A stretch of DNA of 64,000 nt from the NCBI GenBank assembly GCA_951801675.1, contig CATONX010000008.1, positions 1-64,000 of the forward strand, read 5' to 3'. The position numbers were made by a program, and so were the translations under genes. The DNA comes from an uncultured Eubacteriales bacterium (lineage in GTDB: Bacteria > Bacillota > Clostridia > Oscillospirales > Acutalibacteraceae). Of this stretch, positions 4,714 through 14,802 are shown in pieces. Below the pieces are notes generated by a model, which worked only from the letters and a program-made list of their open reading frames with translations, searched no databases and was not told where the DNA came from. Every line of letters begins with the position of its first letter. The stretch's first letter is position 1.

Positions 4714-5685
4714 CTACAATTCCACCGTGACGATGAAGCCGTCCACATTGTTGCCCGAAAGGGTATAGGCCCTGCCGGTGGGAACGGGCACCTGGGTATC
4801 GCCCTCTTCCGCTTTTACATAGTAGATTTCATACCGTTTGCCGTCATAATCCTCGATTTGCAGATGCTGCCGGCCAAAGGGAAACTGCTTTAGATAATCG
4901 ATGTACTCTTCCATGCAGATGCCCTGCTGAGTCATAATGTAAGCGTGGGGCTTTCCTACAAAGCGGAAATGCCACGGCTCGTAGGACACGCCGGTCAGGT
5001 CGCTCTTTTTCTCGTCATAACGAACGATAAAGCCGTACTTGTAGCAGCTTTGATTGATCCAGGAGTAGACCCCTTCGCCGGTGTAGTCTTCGAGCCGTCC
5101 GAACTGGTTAAAGACCCCCAAATCCATGGCATAGCCGGTGTGGTGCTCGCTGCCGCCGGGAGGGGCCACCCATTTGGACGCTTCCACCGCTCCCACCTCA
5201 TTGACCTTATTGGCGAGAAGGGTCTTCTGGTAGTCGTAGGTGCGAAAGCCGCTCAGGGCCAGAACTTCCCCGTTGCCGGTGGCCTTGTGGAAATCGTGAA
5301 GCATGGCGTCCAGAGGGCCCATCATGTCCTCGTCCACCTGGACATTGCGGTCCTTGACCTTGTAGCCGTCGGACTTGTTGTCATATACGCCGACGAGGCG
5401 GCTGGTCTCGGGAAACCGGTAGGGAACCTGAGCGTTGACCAAAATGAGCTGTCCTTCATAAACCGCGCTGTGGGAAAGGGTCTTTTCGGTATAGCCGCTG
5501 GGGTCCGGTGCGGATGCGATGGATGGCTGGTTCGAGAGCACCTCGCTGGGCACGGAGGGTCCTTTCCCCGCGTCGTCGGCCCAGTAAAAGGCGCAGCCCG
5601 CCACCACCGCCACGCAGAGAAGAAGCACGGCCGCAATCAGCAGGCCGTAGGGAATGTGGTTATGTTTTTGTCTGGAAGCAGACAT
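4714..5685 (-). CDS. VanY-type D-alanyl-D-alanine carboxypeptidase, membrane-anchored
   Basis: This 323-residue protein has a short basic N-terminus, one membrane segment (about residues 13-33) and an extracellular M15B peptidase domain. The zinc motif SEHHTGYAMDLG (about 178-190) and the second motif EPWHFRF (about 237-243) carry the two zinc histidines, the zinc aspartate and the catalytic glutamate of the VanY/DacB peptidases. The predicted role is trimming the terminal D-Ala from peptidoglycan stem peptides outside the cell. The start ATG at 5685 follows GGAGGAATCAACT. A cysteine next to the membrane segment (AGCAFYW) could suggest a lipoprotein, but the residues before it do not fit a lipobox well. 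No van resistance genes are nearby, so a housekeeping cell-wall role is likely. Confidence 0.9.
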   Translation of the reverse strand: MSASRQKHNHIPYGLLIAAVLLLCVAVVAGCAFYWADDAGKGPSVPSEVLSNQPSIASAPDPSGYTEKTLSHSAVYEGQLILVNAQVPYRFPETSRLVGVYDNKSDGYKVKDRNVQVDEDMMGPLDAMLHDFHKATGNGEVLALSGFRTYDYQKTLLANKVNEVGAVEASKWVAPPGGSEHHTGYAMDLGVFNQFGRLEDYTGEGVYSWINQSCYKYGFIVRYDEKKSDLTGVSYEPWHFRFVGKPHAYIMTQQGICMEEYIDYLKQFPFGRQHLQIEDYDGKRYEIYYVKAEEGDTQVPVPTGRAYTLSGNNVDGFIVTVEL

Positions 5686-7276: not shown

Positions 7277-9055
7277 ATGAACGATACCCTTCAGGGAATC
7301 AAACGCACCGACTACTGCGGTACGCTGCGGGAGACGGACATTGGAAGAGAAGTGACGGTTTGCGGCTGGGTGCAGCGGCAGCGGGACTTGGGAGGCCTCA
7401 TTTTTGTGGACCTGCGGGACCGCACGGGCCTTTTGCAGCTGGCCTTTGACGACAACACCGACCGGGCCGTCTTTGAGAAGGCGGGAGAGCTGCGCTCGGA
7501 GTTCGTGGCGGCGGCCCGGGGCGTCATCCGCCGCCGGGCGGCGGTCAACAAGGACATCCCCACCGGCCTTGTGGAGGTGGAAGTGACGGAGCTTCGTATC
7601 CTGTCCCGCGCCCAGACCCCGCCCTTTGAAATCTCGGACGACTGCAACGCCAGGGAAGAGCTGCGCCTCAAGTACCGATATCTGGACCTGCGCCGCCCGA
7701 AGCTGCAGCAAAACCTGATGCTGCGCCATCGGGTGGTCAAGGCGACCAGGGACTATTTCGATTCCAAGGGATTTTTGGAGATCGAAACCCCGGTGCTCAT
7801 CAAGTCCACCCCGGAGGGGGCCAGAGACTATCTGGTTCCCAGCCGGCTGCACCACGGGGAATTTTACGCGCTGCCCCAGTCCCCCCAGATCTATAAGCAG
7901 CTGCTGATGGTGTCCGGGTACGACCGGTACATGCAGATCGCCCGGTGCTTTCGGGACGAGGACCTGCGGGCCGACCGGCAGCCGGAGTTTACCCAGATTG
8001 ACTGCGAGCTGTCCTTTGTGGACATGGAAGAGATCCTGGAAATCGGAGAAGGCTTCGTCCAGTACCTGTTCAAGGAAACCTTAGGGGTGGACGTGCCCCT
8101 GCCCCTCCCCCGCATCACCTATACGGACGCTATGAACCGGTTCGGCTCGGATAAGCCGGACACCCGTTTTGGCATGGAAATCTGCGACGTGTCCGAACTT
8201 GTGAAGGATTCCGCCTTCTCGGTGTTCTCCTCTCCCATCAAGGAGGGGGGCAGCGTGCGGGGAATCGTGGCCAAGGACGCGGCCAAAACCCTCACCCGCA
8301 AGGAGATCGACAAGCTGACCGAATACGTCCGAGGCATCGGCGCGAAAGGCCTTGCATGGGTGCGCTGGGTGGAGGAAAAGCCGGCCTGCTCCTTCGGCAA
8401 GTTCATGGCCGAGGGCGAGCTGGAAGCGATCCTTTCCCACATGGGCGCACAGCAGGGGGACGTGGTGCTGCTGGTGGCGGACAAGGACAAGGTGGTCCTC
8501 CCCACTCTGGGCGCCCTGCGCCTGGAGGTGGCTCGGAAACTCTCCATTATCCCCGACCAGTACAATTTCCTCTGGGTGACGGAGTTTCCCTTCTTCGAAT
8601 GGGACGAGGACGCCAACACCTGGGTTGCCATGCACCATCCCTTCACCGCTCCCATGGACGAATGCATCCAGTACCTGGATTCGGACAAGGGCAAGGTCCG
8701 GGCCAAGGCTTATGACCTGGTGCTAAACGGCGTGGAGCTCTCTTCCGGTTCTATAAGAATCACCGACCCGACTTTGCAGGCGCGGATGTTCGCGGCATTG
8801 GGTCTGTCCGACGAAGAGGCCGCGCGCAAGTTCGGCTTCCTGACGGGCGCCTTCCAGTACGGCGCGCCGCCTCACGGGGGCTTCGGTATCGGGCTTGACC
8901 GGCTTGTGATGCTCATGGCCGGGGCGGATTCCATCCGCGAGGTCATTGCCTTCCCGAAGGTGCAAAACGCCAGCGAGCTCATGAGCGAGTGCCCCTCCCC
9001 GGTGGATGAGGTACAGCTCAGGGAGCTGGGAATTCAAACCATAACGGAAGAATAA
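7277..9055 (+). CDS. aspS: Aspartate--tRNA ligase
   Basis: This 592-residue class II synthetase has an N-terminal OB-fold anticodon domain (GWVQRQRDLGGLIFVDLRDR), a bacterial-type GAD insert (about residues 290-410) and the catalytic core. FRDEDLRADRQPEFTQ is motif 2 and GLDRLVMLMAG is motif 3. I chose ATG 7277 because GGAG lies 9 bases upstream and homologues start just before the LQGIKRTDYCG stretch; ATG 7262, five residues longer, is an alternative, and an even longer reading overlaps hisS. It follows hisS closely and ends before a strong terminator. I cannot tell whether it is discriminating or also charges tRNA-Asn. Confidence 0.96.
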   Translation: MNDTLQGIKRTDYCGTLRETDIGREVTVCGWVQRQRDLGGLIFVDLRDRTGLLQLAFDDNTDRAVFEKAGELRSEFVAAARGVIRRRAAVNKDIPTGLVEVEVTELRILSRAQTPPFEISDDCNAREELRLKYRYLDLRRPKLQQNLMLRHRVVKATRDYFDSKGFLEIETPVLIKSTPEGARDYLVPSRLHHGEFYALPQSPQIYKQLLMVSGYDRYMQIARCFRDEDLRADRQPEFTQIDCELSFVDMEEILEIGEGFVQYLFKETLGVDVPLPLPRITYTDAMNRFGSDKPDTRFGMEICDVSELVKDSAFSVFSSPIKEGGSVRGIVAKDAAKTLTRKEIDKLTEYVRGIGAKGLAWVRWVEEKPACSFGKFMAEGELEAILSHMGAQQGDVVLLVADKDKVVLPTLGALRLEVARKLSIIPDQYNFLWVTEFPFFEWDEDANTWVAMHHPFTAPMDECIQYLDSDKGKVRAKAYDLVLNGVELSSGSIRITDPTLQARMFAALGLSDEEAARKFGFLTGAFQYGAPPHGGFGIGLDRLVMLMAGADSIREVIAFPKVQNASELMSECPSPVDEVQLRELGIQTITEE

Positions 9056-9585: not shown

Positions 9586-11619
9586 TTATCTGCGTTCGCG
9601 GATCATGGTCTTGCAGCCGAAGTAGGTGGCCAGGAAATAGCCGCCGTAAATGAGGATGATGATGCCGGCGGTAAAGATGGTGTTGGCCACCATGTCCAGA
9701 TTTCCGAACTGCTGGACAATCTGGTTTGCCACCGTCAGCCCCACCACCGAATGGACGATGGCCAGAGCTAAGGGCATCATGAAGTAGATGAAAATCTGGG
9801 TAAAGAGGGCCCGGTTGACCATTTTTTCCTCCGCGCCCAGCTTTTTGAGCAGGCGGTAGCGCTGGACGTTGTCGGCCGATTCGGAAAGCTGCTGCAAGGC
9901 CAGCACCGCGGCGGAGGTAATCAGGAAGATGATGCCGATGTAGATCGCCAGGTAAGAAAGGATGGTCTTGAGGCCGGCGCCCGCGTCGAGCACTTCCTGG
10001 CGGGAGTAATAACTGCTGTAGGGCCGGGCGAGGGATTCGTTGGTCCCCACCTTATAGGCGGTATTCACCGCTTCGAAGAAGGCGGCTTCCGCGTCGGAAG
10101 ATTGGAAGTTTACGTTGGTGATGGTGCGCCGGAGGAAGAACCCTTCCGTTTCAAAGGCCGCGTCGGGCAGGACCAGGGTGCCGATATCCATGAACATCTG
10201 GGTGGTTTCCATAATGTTGGGCAGGGCTTCCCGGCTGGCGGCGGTATAGGTTACGCCGCCGATGTCTATGGTCCCGTCCTTCTGGAGGAAGTCGTTTACA
10301 ATGGGGATCATGTTGGTATAATTGCAGTTGATAATAAACTGGTTCCCGGAAAGCTCCACCGGCTCCTTGCCCTGCATGACCAACGCCGCGTTATAGTCGG
10401 ACAAAGAGATGGCTTCCATGTCCGTCCCTTCCATGGACTCGAGGGTGTAGCCGTTGGGGACCATGGACTCCCGGGAGGTGAGGATGGCTTTGTAGGTGAC
10501 AGGGGCGTTGTAAATCCGCACCTCCTGTTCCTCTTTGGTATAGTCGGACAGGTTGATCCCGTTCTTTTGCAGCTCGCCCCGAAACGGGGGGCGCTCATAC
10601 TCCGGGTCGTCGGGATAGTGGTACTGGGTGAAGGAGACGTCGTAGGGGGTGGTCTTTTGCAGGTCCTTGGTGAGCACGTCGGCAAGCCCCAGACCGCTCG
10701 AAAGGGTACCGATGGTGATGAGCAGCATGATGCAGATCAGGGTCATGGAGACGAAGGTGGTGTTGATCTTAGAGTTGATCTGCCGCAGCACGAACATGTT
10801 GAGGTTTTTCAGGTACAGCCGTTTATTGGACTTGACCACCCGCAGCAGAAAACCGGACAGGGACATGAAGAAAAGAAGGGTGCCCAGCGCACCGAAGACC
10901 AGCGCCGCGGTGAACTTCCAGTCCAGGGTAAGCATGCCGTTGTCGAGAATGCAGTAGTAGGCGAAGGCCAGGCAGCCCACCGCGATGATAAACAGCACCA
11001 CTGAAACCCAGAGCTTGCGGATTTTCAGGCTTTCGTTTTTCTTGCCGGCGGTGAGCAGGTCGATGAGCTTATACTTGGAGATGGAGATGGTGTTGAAAAT
11101 CATCACCAGCAGGAAAATCAGGCCGAAGTAAAGGATGGAGTGGAGAAGGGCGTCCATGGAGAAGGTAAACTCGAACTGTTTGAGATTGACGGCGAACATC
11201 TTGGCCGTCACCACCGCAAGCCCCTGGGAAGCAAAGATGCCCACCACCAGGCCTACCACCAGGGAAATGACACCGATGAAGAAGGTTTCCAGGATGACGA
11301 GACGGGAAATTTTCCCCTTGGGCATGCCCAGGATCATGTACAGGCCCAGTTCCTTTTTGCGCCGCTTGATGAGGAAGCGGTTGGCATAGATGATGAGGAA
11401 GGCAAGAATCACCGAGATGAACACGGAGACGTATCCCATCATCTGGGTGAGCAATTTGAGCATATCCTCCTGGCGGGAGGACACGTCGAGCATGGCCTGC
11501 TGGGAGTCAATGGAGTTAAAGACGTAGAAAAGGCAGACGCCGAAGGTCAACGTCAGAAAGTAGATGGTATAGTCCTTCATGCTTTTCTTGACGTTTTGGA
11601 AGGCTAGCTTAGAGAACAT
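9586..11619 (-). CDS. BceB-type ABC transporter permease (FtsX-like)
   Basis: This 677-residue protein is the membrane subunit of a peptide-detoxification ABC transporter. It has ten predicted membrane segments arranged as in BceB/VraG: one near the N-terminus (YTIYFLTLTFGVCLFYVF), an FtsX-like block, a large extracellular domain of about 200 residues (about 310-540), and a second FtsX-like block at the end. The family frees lipid II-cycle intermediates from peptides such as bacitracin and also serves as the sensor for its histidine kinase. I chose ATG 11619 (MFSKLAFQNVKKS) because GGAGGTGAC lies 7 bases upstream. It overlaps the ATPase gene by 11 bases, so the two are translationally coupled. 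Confidence 0.92.
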   Translation of the reverse strand: MFSKLAFQNVKKSMKDYTIYFLTLTFGVCLFYVFNSIDSQQAMLDVSSRQEDMLKLLTQMMGYVSVFISVILAFLIIYANRFLIKRRKKELGLYMILGMPKGKISRLVILETFFIGVISLVVGLVVGIFASQGLAVVTAKMFAVNLKQFEFTFSMDALLHSILYFGLIFLLVMIFNTISISKYKLIDLLTAGKKNESLKIRKLWVSVVLFIIAVGCLAFAYYCILDNGMLTLDWKFTAALVFGALGTLLFFMSLSGFLLRVVKSNKRLYLKNLNMFVLRQINSKINTTFVSMTLICIMLLITIGTLSSGLGLADVLTKDLQKTTPYDVSFTQYHYPDDPEYERPPFRGELQKNGINLSDYTKEEQEVRIYNAPVTYKAILTSRESMVPNGYTLESMEGTDMEAISLSDYNAALVMQGKEPVELSGNQFIINCNYTNMIPIVNDFLQKDGTIDIGGVTYTAASREALPNIMETTQMFMDIGTLVLPDAAFETEGFFLRRTITNVNFQSSDAEAAFFEAVNTAYKVGTNESLARPYSSYYSRQEVLDAGAGLKTILSYLAIYIGIIFLITSAAVLALQQLSESADNVQRYRLLKKLGAEEKMVNRALFTQIFIYFMMPLALAIVHSVVGLTVANQIVQQFGNLDMVANTIFTAGIIILIYGGYFLATYFGCKTMIRERR

Positions 11620-12376
11620 TGCTGTTGTCACCTCCAAGCAGGGTCACGACTTCGATGATCTTGTTGAAGAACTGCTTGCGGGTATCGCTTCCTCTCATGA
11701 GCTCGTTGAAGATCTTACCGTCCTTGATGAAGAGGATGCGGTGGCAGTAGCTGGCGGTAAAGGCGTCGTGGGTAACCATGAGGATGGTGGCACGCAGGTC
11801 CCGGTTGAGGGTCTCGAAGCTCTCTAAGAGCATCCGGGCGGACTTGGAATCCAGGTTGCCGGTGGGCTCATCCGCCAGAATCAGGGAGGGGTTCGTAATA
11901 ATGGCCCGCGCGCAGGCCACCCGTTGCTTCTGGCCGCCGGACATCTGATAAGGGTACTTATTGAGCACATCCCCGATCTCCAGCTTGGAGGCCACGTTTT
12001 TGACCCGCTCGATGATCTCGGCGGAGGGGGTCTTGATGATGGTCAGGGCCAGGGCGATATTTTCAAAAGCGGTCAGGGTGTCTAACAGGTTAAAGTCCTG
12101 AAAAATAAAGCCCAGCTGTTCCCGGCGGAAGCGGGAAAGGCTTTTGGAATTGAGGGCGGTGATGTCGCTTGCGCCGATGTAGATGTGGCCGGAGGTAACC
12201 GTGTCGATGGTGGAGATGCAGTTTAAGAGGGTGGTCTTACCGGAGCCGGAGGCACCCATAATGCCCACATACTCCCCTTCGCTTACGTCGAAGCTGATCT
12301 GGTCCACCGCCTTGGTGACGTTTCCTTTGTTTCCGTAATATTTCTCGATGTTCTGAACCGATAAAATCGCACTCAT
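11609..12376 (-). CDS. BceA-type ABC transporter ATPase
   Basis: This 255-residue ATPase powers the BceB-type permease encoded directly after it. Walker A is GASGSGKTT (residues 41-49), the Q-loop is FIFQDFNLLDT, the signature is MSGGQKQR (145-152), Walker B is LILADEPTGNLDS (165-177) and the switch histidine is in MVTHD. The extra C-terminal tail is normal for the MacB/LolD-like branch. I chose ATG 12376 because AGGAGGAAAAACG precedes it; a longer reading to 12433 has no ribosome binding site. A response-regulator box (12458-12471) lies upstream, so induction by the adjacent two-component system is expected. Confidence 0.94.
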   Translation of the reverse strand: MSAILSVQNIEKYYGNKGNVTKAVDQISFDVSEGEYVGIMGASGSGKTTLLNCISTIDTVTSGHIYIGASDITALNSKSLSRFRREQLGFIFQDFNLLDTLTAFENIALALTIIKTPSAEIIERVKNVASKLEIGDVLNKYPYQMSGGQKQRVACARAIITNPSLILADEPTGNLDSKSARMLLESFETLNRDLRATILMVTHDAFTASYCHRILFIKDGKIFNELMRGSDTRKQFFNKIIEVVTLLGGDNSNVL

Positions 12377-12457
12377 CGTTTTTCCTCCTGTTTCTCGTGA
12401 TGGCTTTATCTTACCACCCACACGGGCCGACAACCATCGTTTTTCCTTACGTTTGAC

Positions 12458-12471
12458 TTACAGTTTTGTCA
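12458..12471 (-). promoter_or_regulatory. BceR-type response regulator box
   Basis: On the minus strand this site reads TGACA-AAAC-TGTAA, an exact match to the TNACA-N4-TGTAA consensus reported for BceR-like regulators of Bacillus. It lies about 80 bases upstream of the ATPase start, the position expected for activation of the transporter operon by the neighbouring response regulator. Confidence 0.7.
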
Positions 12472-12590: not shown

Positions 12591-12621
12591 AAAAAGCCCC
12601 CGCGCGAATGACGCGGGGGGC
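12591..12621 (-). terminator. Terminator after the histidine kinase gene
   Basis: On the minus strand a G+C stem (GCCCCCCGCG with CGCGGGGGC) is followed by TTTTT. It separates the regulator pair from the transporter pair, which therefore has its own promoter. Confidence 0.8.
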
Positions 12622-12783: not shown

Positions 12784-13791
12784 TCAAAGCAGATGCATGG
12801 TGCCCTTGGGAAAGACGATGCGCACAGTGGTTCCGCTGCCTGGGCAGGAGGTCAGGGTGATGGAAAGGCCCAGCTTGTCGCAAAGCTTTCTGCACAAATA
12901 GAGCCCCATACCGGTGGACTTGGCGTAGCGCCGGCCGTTCTCCCCGGTAAAGCCCTTTTCGAAGGCGCGGGCCGCGTCCGCCTCGCTCATGCCGATGCCG
13001 TTGTCCGCGATGTACAAAGCGATGCGGTTGTCCCACTCCTGGGCATAGATACGGATGCTGGCCGGGTCCTGCTTATACTTAATGGCATTGACAAACAGCT
13101 GGCCCAGAATAAAGTCCACCCATTTGACATCGGTGTATACCGTGAAATCCACCTCTTCCACCGATACCGTGACCTTATTCTCAATAAATCCGGAGGCATG
13201 GCGGCGCACCGCCCCGTACACCATCTCTTTGAGGGAGGACTTTTTCACCAGATAGTCTTTTTCCACGCTGTTGGAGCGCGAATAGTAAAGCGCCTGCTCC
13301 ACAAACCCGTCGATCTTCCCAATCTCCTCCCCGATGGAGCGGGTTACCTCATCCGGATGGTTTTCGATGAGCAGGAGGCTGGAGGCGATGGGAGTTTTCA
13401 CCTCATGCACCCAGGTCTCAATAAACTCCCGGTACTCGGTGGACTGGCGCTTATAAAGGGCAATCTCATCGTTCATGGCCTTGCCGGTCCGGCGCAGGGT
13501 GTCATATAGGATTTCCCCCTCTGCAAAGGAGGGCCGCTCCAAAAGCTCCATGAGCAGGAACTTCTTATCTAAAGCCTCCAGGTGCTTTTCCACCTGCCGG
13601 TAATAAGCCCGCTTATACAGGTATTCCGTCAGAAGGCCTGCCAGCATGGCCAAAAGCAGCACTCCGGCAATAAACCCGATGGAATAGCCGGGTACCCGCA
13701 GCACCGACAGAAAGATCAATACAAAGACGAACGCCAGAAAAAACGCCGTCAGCAGCACCGCCTTGTCCCGCAGAAAGGAACGCAGTTTCAT
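12784..13791 (-). CDS. BceS-type sensor histidine kinase
   Basis: This 335-residue kinase has two membrane helices near the N-terminus (about residues 12-31 and 36-58) with almost nothing between them, the intramembrane-sensing layout of BceS. The phosphorylated histidine is in WVHEVKTPIAS (about residue 128), the N-box is NAIKYKQDP, and the G-boxes are DNGIGM and STGMGLYLCRKL. Such kinases receive the signal from the partner permease rather than from the peptide itself. The start ATG at 13791 overlaps the stop of the response regulator in the form ATGA, so the two are coupled. The longer reading to 13917 runs inside the regulator gene. Confidence 0.94.
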   Translation of the reverse strand: MKLRSFLRDKAVLLTAFFLAFVFVLIFLSVLRVPGYSIGFIAGVLLLAMLAGLLTEYLYKRAYYRQVEKHLEALDKKFLLMELLERPSFAEGEILYDTLRRTGKAMNDEIALYKRQSTEYREFIETWVHEVKTPIASSLLLIENHPDEVTRSIGEEIGKIDGFVEQALYYSRSNSVEKDYLVKKSSLKEMVYGAVRRHASGFIENKVTVSVEEVDFTVYTDVKWVDFILGQLFVNAIKYKQDPASIRIYAQEWDNRIALYIADNGIGMSEADAARAFEKGFTGENGRRYAKSTGMGLYLCRKLCDKLGLSITLTSCPGSGTTVRIVFPKGTMHLL

Positions 13792-14453
13792 ACCATATAC
13801 CCCTGTCCCCGTTTGGTGATCAGATAATCGTACACGCCGATGGTTTCCAGCCGTTTGCGCAGGCGGGTGATGTTCACCGTCAGCGTATTGTCGTCCACAA
13901 ACTCGTCCGACTGCCACAGGTCGTTCATGATGGCTTCCCGGGAAACAATGGCGGAAGGATGCTTCATCAGAAGATGAAGGATGCGTACTTCGTTTTTGGA
14001 GAGCTCCACCTCCCGGCCCTCATGGCTGGCAATGCTCTTGGAAAGGTCCAAGGTGACGCCGCTATGGGAGATGGTCTTCGACCCGCCGCCCTGGTAGGTT
14101 CTTTTGAGCACGGAGGAAATGCGCGCCAGAAGGATTTGGGTATTGTAAGGCTTTGTAATAAAATCATCGGCGCCCAGGTTCATGCTCATCAACTCGTCCA
14201 CATCGCTGTCCCGGCTGGTGACCATAATGATGGGCACATCCGAGCCCTTGCGGATTTCCCGGCAGATGTGGTAACCGTCGAAAACAGGCAGGTTGATGTC
14301 CAGCAAAAGAAGCTGCGCCTCATAGGTCAAAACCGCATCCACCACCCCCTCAAAGCTATCCGACGCCCGGCATTCATAGCCGTATTTGGTCAACAGCAAG
14401 GAAAGCTCCGTGCGGATTTTGGGGTCGTCCTCTATGATATAGATTTTCGCCAT
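13788..14453 (-). CDS. BceR-type response regulator (OmpR family)
   Basis: This 221-residue regulator has a receiver domain (residues 1-115) with the acidic pair EDD near residue 8, the phosphorylated aspartate at 52 (LLLLDINLP) and the conserved lysine in ITKPYN. A winged-helix DNA-binding domain follows (about 125-221), ending LITKRGQGYMV. It should activate the BceAB-type transporter genes through the box at 12458-12471. I chose ATG 14453 because AAAGGATGAGGGAC precedes it; ATG 14462, three residues longer, would sit almost on the ribosome binding site. It is the first gene of the regulator pair. Confidence 0.94.
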   Translation of the reverse strand: MAKIYIIEDDPKIRTELSLLLTKYGYECRASDSFEGVVDAVLTYEAQLLLLDINLPVFDGYHICREIRKGSDVPIIMVTSRDSDVDELMSMNLGADDFITKPYNTQILLARISSVLKRTYQGGGSKTISHSGVTLDLSKSIASHEGREVELSKNEVRILHLLMKHPSAIVSREAIMNDLWQSDEFVDDNTLTVNITRLRKRLETIGVYDYLITKRGQGYMV

Positions 14454-14802
14454 GTCCCTCATCCTTTCGTGTTCAGTATACGATTATTCCCCCAGGAAAA
14501 GCAAGGGAAACCCCTTTGAAAATATTCTGGTTTTTCACAGATGCTACAAACCGGGAAAATTTTGTATAAAAATCGGGAAAGCCCTTTACTTTTGCATGAT
14601 AGTAAATTACAATTACATTGTCAATCTCTTTCTTTTAATTGCAGTGTTTTACTTTGTTGAGCTTGATTTTTGCGCAAATTTCCATATTTTCTTCCACTTT
14701 GTTCAGTATGATTTACCCACCCAATCTTTCATGGGCACGTCTGATAGACGTTCCCGGCGGCGAAGTCCCTGCACATTTGTGGCTTTGAGGGAGGGCTTTC
14801 CT
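14454..14802. other. AT-rich divergent promoter region
   Basis: This 349-base stretch separates the response regulator (minus) from the first lipoprotein (plus) and is clearly richer in A+T than its surroundings. It must carry both promoters, but I could not choose a single convincing -35/-10 pair for either. No gene or stable RNA was recognised. Confidence 0.6.

Follow-up and report, generated by a model that had tools for sequence, protein, structure and literature searches.

A predicted BceR-type operator with a conserved downstream half-site before bceAB in a little-studied Clostridia family

The four-gene locus and its signals

The window (the whole stretch of 64,000 nucleotides that was analysed) carries on its minus strand four adjoining genes, in the order regulator, kinase, ATPase and permease. 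The genes and the predicted signals around them are listed in the direction of transcription.

14596..14624, minus: promoter-like TTGACA-17-TATCAT before the regulator gene, 11 of 12 positions matching
13788..14453, minus: bceR-type response regulator with receiver and winged-helix domains (Response_reg PF00072, Trans_reg_C PF00486)
12784..13791, minus: bceS-type kinase of 335 residues (solved relative BceS 8g3a, hydropathy)
12597..12619, minus: terminator-like stem-loop between the kinase gene and the operator, 9 pairs of which 8 are G-C, followed by CTTTTTG
12472-12457, minus: predicted main operator, the inverted repeat CTGACA-AAAC-TGTAAG, CTGACAAAACTGTAAG (exact consensus; 41 of 49 relatives keep it with no more than one mismatch)
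12451-12446, minus: extra half-site CGTAAG, whose start lies 11 bp beyond that of the right arm TGTAAG
12431..12437, minus: conserved ATGG (12437-12434) over a weak -35, TGGTTG (12436-12431); its A and T do not vary across 28 class I loci
12408..12416, minus: extended -10, TGG-TAAGAT, conserved in position and degenerate in sequence
12384..12389, minus: bceA ribosome-binding site AGGAGG (from the sequence)
11609..12376, minus: bceA-type ABC ATPase (ABC_tran PF00005)
9586..11619, minus: bceB-type permease (solved relative BceB 7tcg, hydropathy, FtsX PF02687)

The solved relatives of the permease at E values of 0.01 or lower were only BceB (7tcg, E 9.3e-30) and PsdB (9ugg, E 2.2e-21). When 18 overlapping windows of its hydropathy profile were grouped by hand, about ten hydrophobic spans emerged, seven and then three, and spans 7 and 8 are separated by about 240 residues. 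BceB-type permeases likewise have ten spans and a large extracellular domain at this position. The closest solved relative of the kinase was BceS (8g3a, E 2.6e-28, 102.7 bits; the runner-up scored 45.7 bits). The kinase has two hydrophobic segments, with peaks at residues 12-30 and 37-55 of 335, joined by a very short loop, and like BceS-type kinases it has no extracellular sensor domain. The OmpR/PhoB-type regulator gene adjoins the kinase and transporter genes, as in BceRSAB modules, and the best solved relatives of the regulator were 5dcl and 5dcm (PhoB-family regulator, E 1.1e-47), which we take to be NsrR of Streptococcus agalactiae. None of the best 25 of up to 189 NCBIfam models per protein reached its own cut-off. 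Judged by these similarities, the four genes form a BceRSAB module.

In this region, 6 terminator-like sites were found against 3.1 expected, and 3 promoter-like sites against 1.9 expected. A simple promoter scan of the region did not report the bceA promoter. The regulator and kinase genes are probably transcribed separately, from their own promoter and with a terminator behind them, and bceAB probably from a weak promoter of its own.

The box and its conservation in relatives

The initial annotation had claimed an exact BceR-type box at 12458-12471, and this was confirmed: the minus strand from 12471 to 12458 reads TGACAAAACTGTAA, with no mismatch to TNACA-N4-TGTAA, the consensus for regulators of bceAB-type genes that PMC9020739 quotes from Dintner et al. 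2011. The box lies 95 to 82 nt upstream of the bceA start and has an AT-rich spacer, AAAC, between its arms TGACA and TGTAA, as expected of a BceR-type operator. It is the sole exact match to the consensus on both strands of the 64 kb window. When one mismatch to TGACA-N4-TGTAA was permitted, the window held 2 matches against 1.41 expected in dinucleotide shuffles, so a near-match by itself means nothing. In Markov simulations, the exact consensus was expected 0.14 times per window of such composition (at least once in 10% of 150 simulations) and approximately 0.00016 times per single 150-nt interval on one strand. Across the whole genome the exact pattern gave 15 strand-hits at 11 places (reversed control, 3), and of these places only the window box adjoins a BceB-type gene, as judged by position.

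Relatives were gathered by permease sequence similarity, and the box was not used in their selection. Among 49 distinct regions upstream of bceA, the box was found with at most one mismatch in 41 and exactly in 24; dinucleotide shuffles of the same 49 regions gave means of 1.43 (maximum 5) and 0.02 (maximum 1), respectively. Because it is conserved at the same place in relatives at a frequency so far above that of the shuffles, the box is, on this comparison, not a chance match. The reading as a BceR-type box before a BceAB-type transporter is supported by gene content, exact consensus and conservation at the same distance. When the relatives were divided by the identity of their BceA to that of the window, the box was present in 25 of 33 at 58% or more and in 16 of 16 below 58%, the line between the two bands being our own choice. 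Rows were excluded when the BceA alignment started after residue 6 or ended before residue 200, or when less than 60 nt of upstream DNA was available; L075 was among those excluded. L019 (37% identical, no box) stands outside the 49 regions, yet inside the ATPase tree described below. The loci from L074 onward, which were retrieved with the half-site pattern, likewise lie outside the 49-region counts and are included in the tree, promoter-profile and stem analyses.

The eight regions in which the box was absent at this threshold differ among themselves. In L024 the right arm is altered and the half-site retained, L046 has two mismatches, and L058 has no box in upstream DNA cut short at merely 60 nt. 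In L061, L063, L064, L067 and L068 the box is unrecognisable or poor. L063-L068 form one clade, in which L065 and L066 carry a one-mismatch box and are counted among the 41. In this transporter clade (family f14) the box is lost or altered, and L064-L067 share a different conserved promoter stretch. Because a permease search across the phylum added just 2 further genomes of 299, the transporter subtype is patchy across the phylum.

A longer operator and two spacing registers

The box was real and exact as initially annotated, and its 14 nt are only part of the predicted operator: the half-site CGTAAG (12451-12446) and the ATGG at the -35 had been overlooked. GTAAG stands at the 11-bp offset in 16 of the 33 protein-fetched relatives with a BceA identity of at least 58%. 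In the 28 class I loci, which include some retrieved by the half-site pattern itself, A and T of ATGG never vary and its two G have frequencies of 0.75 and 0.86, while the T, A, A and T of the -10 have frequencies of 0.86, 0.89, 0.82 and 0.89, respectively. The alignment suggests that the box belongs to a longer conserved operator comprising the half-site, the ATGG at the -35 and the extended -10. Three Bacillaceae relatives (L051, L052 and L055) retain the main box and lack the half-site.

The pattern TNACAN4TGTAAGN6GTAAG gave 21 sites in 19 of 300 family genomes, and the reversed control gave 0. A BceA gene lies ahead in the same orientation at 15 of the 21 sites; the others are L074, L076, L077, L084, L088 and L089, the last of which is a palindrome, belonging to a class II module, read in reverse. 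This extends the 14-nt consensus to an operator spanning the promoter, and a search with its pattern is enough to find such sites. In L076 (site 1501, plus strand) and L077 (site 1501, minus strand), a full class I operator with a -10 stands before a transglycosylase-like gene instead of bceAB, and the gene of L076 carries PF00912; these two sites hint at a wider regulon in that genus. For the window genome itself a wider regulon was considered and found unsupported: the extended pattern occurs there once, and none of the 10 other exact boxes lies at a BceB-type gene. ORF lists were read around the boxes of L007 and L008, two of the eight stretches retrieved around those other boxes. In L007 (contig C1), three exact boxes, two of which are palindromic, fall within 2.8 kb (5320-5333, 8026-8039 and 8046-8059) with no BceAB genes nearby; judged by eye, neighbouring ORFs resemble a 3D-domain protein and a spore protease.

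In the protein-fetched set the spacer between TGTAAG and the next GTAAG was 6 (16 loci), 15 (8 loci) or 16 letters (5 loci), with no others, and 12 loci with the main box have no GTAAG in the range of 0 to 30. When 295 genomes of the taxonomic order were scanned with spacers of 0 to 30, 40 sites were found in 38 genomes (reversed control, 9), with spacers of 6 (6 sites), 15 (12), 16 (17), 17 (2) and 22, 23 and 27 (1 each). Across the phylum (398 genomes) the spacing was looser: 46 genomes gave 60 hits, a few of them double readings of one place, against 10 for the reversed control, with spacers of 6 (6 hits), 10 (3), 13 (3), 14 (3), 15 (9), 16 (10), 17 (11), 18 (6), 20 (1), 23 (2), 26 (1), 27 (3), 29 (1) and 30 (1). 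A spacer of 6 letters puts the start of the second half-site (CGTAAG or TGTAAG) 11 bp beyond that of the first, and spacers of 15-16 letters put it 20-21 bp beyond. The two registers are about one DNA turn apart, and the step from the half-site to ATGG is identical in both. A spacer of 27, one further DNA turn, occurs in four sites of the order and phylum scans (L112, L144, G931:C1:1251045 and G337:C11:2923), three of which have TGTTAG near the two-turn position. No account of the two registers was found in a literature search, which did not extend to Fang et al. 2017 or Dintner et al. 2011.

This arrangement may also be read in another way, in which the box is an operator and CGTAAG with ATGG are core-promoter features, an unusual -35 region, rather than a second regulator site. 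In favour of this, the distance from GTAAG to both ATGG and the -10 is constant, whichever spacing class is considered. Against it, CGTAAG repeats an arm of the main box, the half-site in protein-fetched loci begins at no distance from that arm other than 11 or 20-21 bp, like a repeated binding site on one helix face, and L051, L052 and L055 have the promoter without the half-site. We consider the core-promoter reading improbable, yet the most credible of the alternatives, and prefer a second regulator site.

Half-site spacing appears largely to follow the transporter clade. The 112 ATPase rows were reduced to 100 by collapsing those with identical first 150 residues, and on the tree of these 100 ATPases, of which 79 carry a label, 5 changes are enough to account for the four spacing groups, compared with 32.5 when the labels are shuffled; the bootstrap of this tree is not settled, and pattern-fetched rows are included. 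The placeable rows with spacers of 17-18 have ATPases 37-44% identical to BceA and form a separate group on the tree. There are exceptions to the rule: L075, outside the tree, has a 6-letter spacer with a BceA 49% identical, L123, L124, L134 and L145 have a 6-letter spacer at 50-54% identity, and L139 has a 16-letter spacer beside the class I clade.

The classes also differ in an inverted repeat. Of 40 class II promoters, 20 (for example L017, L036, L099, L101 and L121, directly before bceA) have a stem with as many as 12 exact pairs that covers the -35, the spacer and the second half-site, and a T-run often comes after it; among the 28 class I promoters just one has such a stem (p up to 0.05, 200 shuffles each). 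In class II, the upstream kinase gene thus seems to end in a terminator that overlaps the promoter of bceA. No stem of this type was found in the window promoter, where the longest exact stem has 3 pairs, and the window terminator precedes the box, unlike the class II overlap.

Both registers can occur in one cell. A permease search of the window genome found BceB-type genes at C8 (the window) and C4, with a weak partial match at C2:162750. The C4 paralogue (L017) has a one-mismatch box in the 20-bp register, whereas the window module is in the 11-bp register. Both registers occur together in eight fetched genomes (G000, G001, G002, G009, G029, G032, G049 and G680). The stretch that we take to be the DNA-reading helix of the regulators is near D(D/E)NTLTVNxxR(L/I)R in most rows of both spacing groups, with variants in L078, L093, L116, L124, L134 and L145. 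Because these helices are nearly alike, the two regulator groups may read much the same letters, and the difference could lie in the register. In B. subtilis, a main site of low specificity is reportedly combined with a specific secondary site (Fang et al. 2017), and the register may be how such specificity is written here. We tentatively propose a spacing code, for which the odds are against us, in which GTAAG is anchored at the -35, the repeat stands one DNA turn (11 bp) or two turns (20-21 bp) above it, and the register, more than the letters of the box, insulates paralogous modules. If true, this would be a simple rule by which near-identical regulators avoid each other's promoters.

It is also conceivable that the box serves another OmpR-family regulator besides, or in place of, the neighbouring one, since C4 of the same genome carries another Bce-type module whose regulator has a nearly identical recognition helix, and cross-binding of Bce-like regulators is documented in Lacticaseibacillus paracasei (PMC10858260). 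The C4 module, however, owns a box with the other spacing, and spacing largely tracks the transporter clade in relatives. We regard such cross-regulation as quite unlikely. That the box is a chance match between two genes, with bceAB regulated otherwise or not at all, is a reading to which near-matches in the window and the 10 exact places elsewhere in the genome lend something, but the conserved position in relatives, with the conserved half-site and -10 behind the box, leads us to reject it as scarcely credible.

Proposed mechanism and comparison with known systems

We are highly confident that the box serves a BceR-type regulator as its main operator, within a self-amplifying BceRSAB module for defence against peptide antibiotics. 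The following steps, namely binding, phosphorylation, cooperation and peptide induction at this predicted operator, are inferred by analogy with what is known from B. subtilis and streptococci. On meeting its drug, the BceAB transporter would activate the BceS kinase, which would phosphorylate the regulator. A regulator dimer would bind the inverted repeat at 12472-12457, and a further regulator would bind the half-site CGTAAG beside the -35. Together, the regulators at both sites would recruit RNA polymerase to the weak bceAB promoter, which would then fire. A little-studied family of Clostridia appears to have the peptide-antibiotic alarm known from Bacillus and streptococci, and to use the same DNA code for it. 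The box itself adds another case of a known switch; what is added here is the longer operator and the two registers.

The closest comparison is BceRSAB of Bacillus subtilis, to which the closest solved relatives of the window permease and kinase belong (7tcg and 8g3a). Fang et al. 2017 reportedly described a main and a secondary site in B. subtilis, and the conserved half-site downstream of the main box in the window might correspond to the second of these. The BceR operator of B. subtilis is an inverted repeat, as in the window (PMC3128592). The same source describes GraSR of Staphylococcus aureus, in which a palindromic operator, ACAAA-TTTGT, is required for peptide induction. GraSR resembles the window in its palindromic operator and differs in having a wide regulon, with 29 candidate genes or operons, while the extended pattern occurs once in the window genome.

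In TCS01-BceAB of Streptococcus pneumoniae, the homologous regulator RR01 shifts the bceAB promoter in gel shift, and the consensus is the same, TNACA-N4-TGTAA (PMC9020739). The two-component genes there are far from bceAB and the box lies 227 bases before bceA, whereas in the window all four genes stand together and the distance is 95 nt. PsdRSAB and ApsRSAB of L. paracasei are paralogous Bce-like systems with a common box, AnnTTACnAnnnnGTnAG (PMC10858260). They resemble the C8 and C4 modules in that two such systems occur in one cell. Cross-binding was shown there, whereas the modules of the window genome differ in half-site register.
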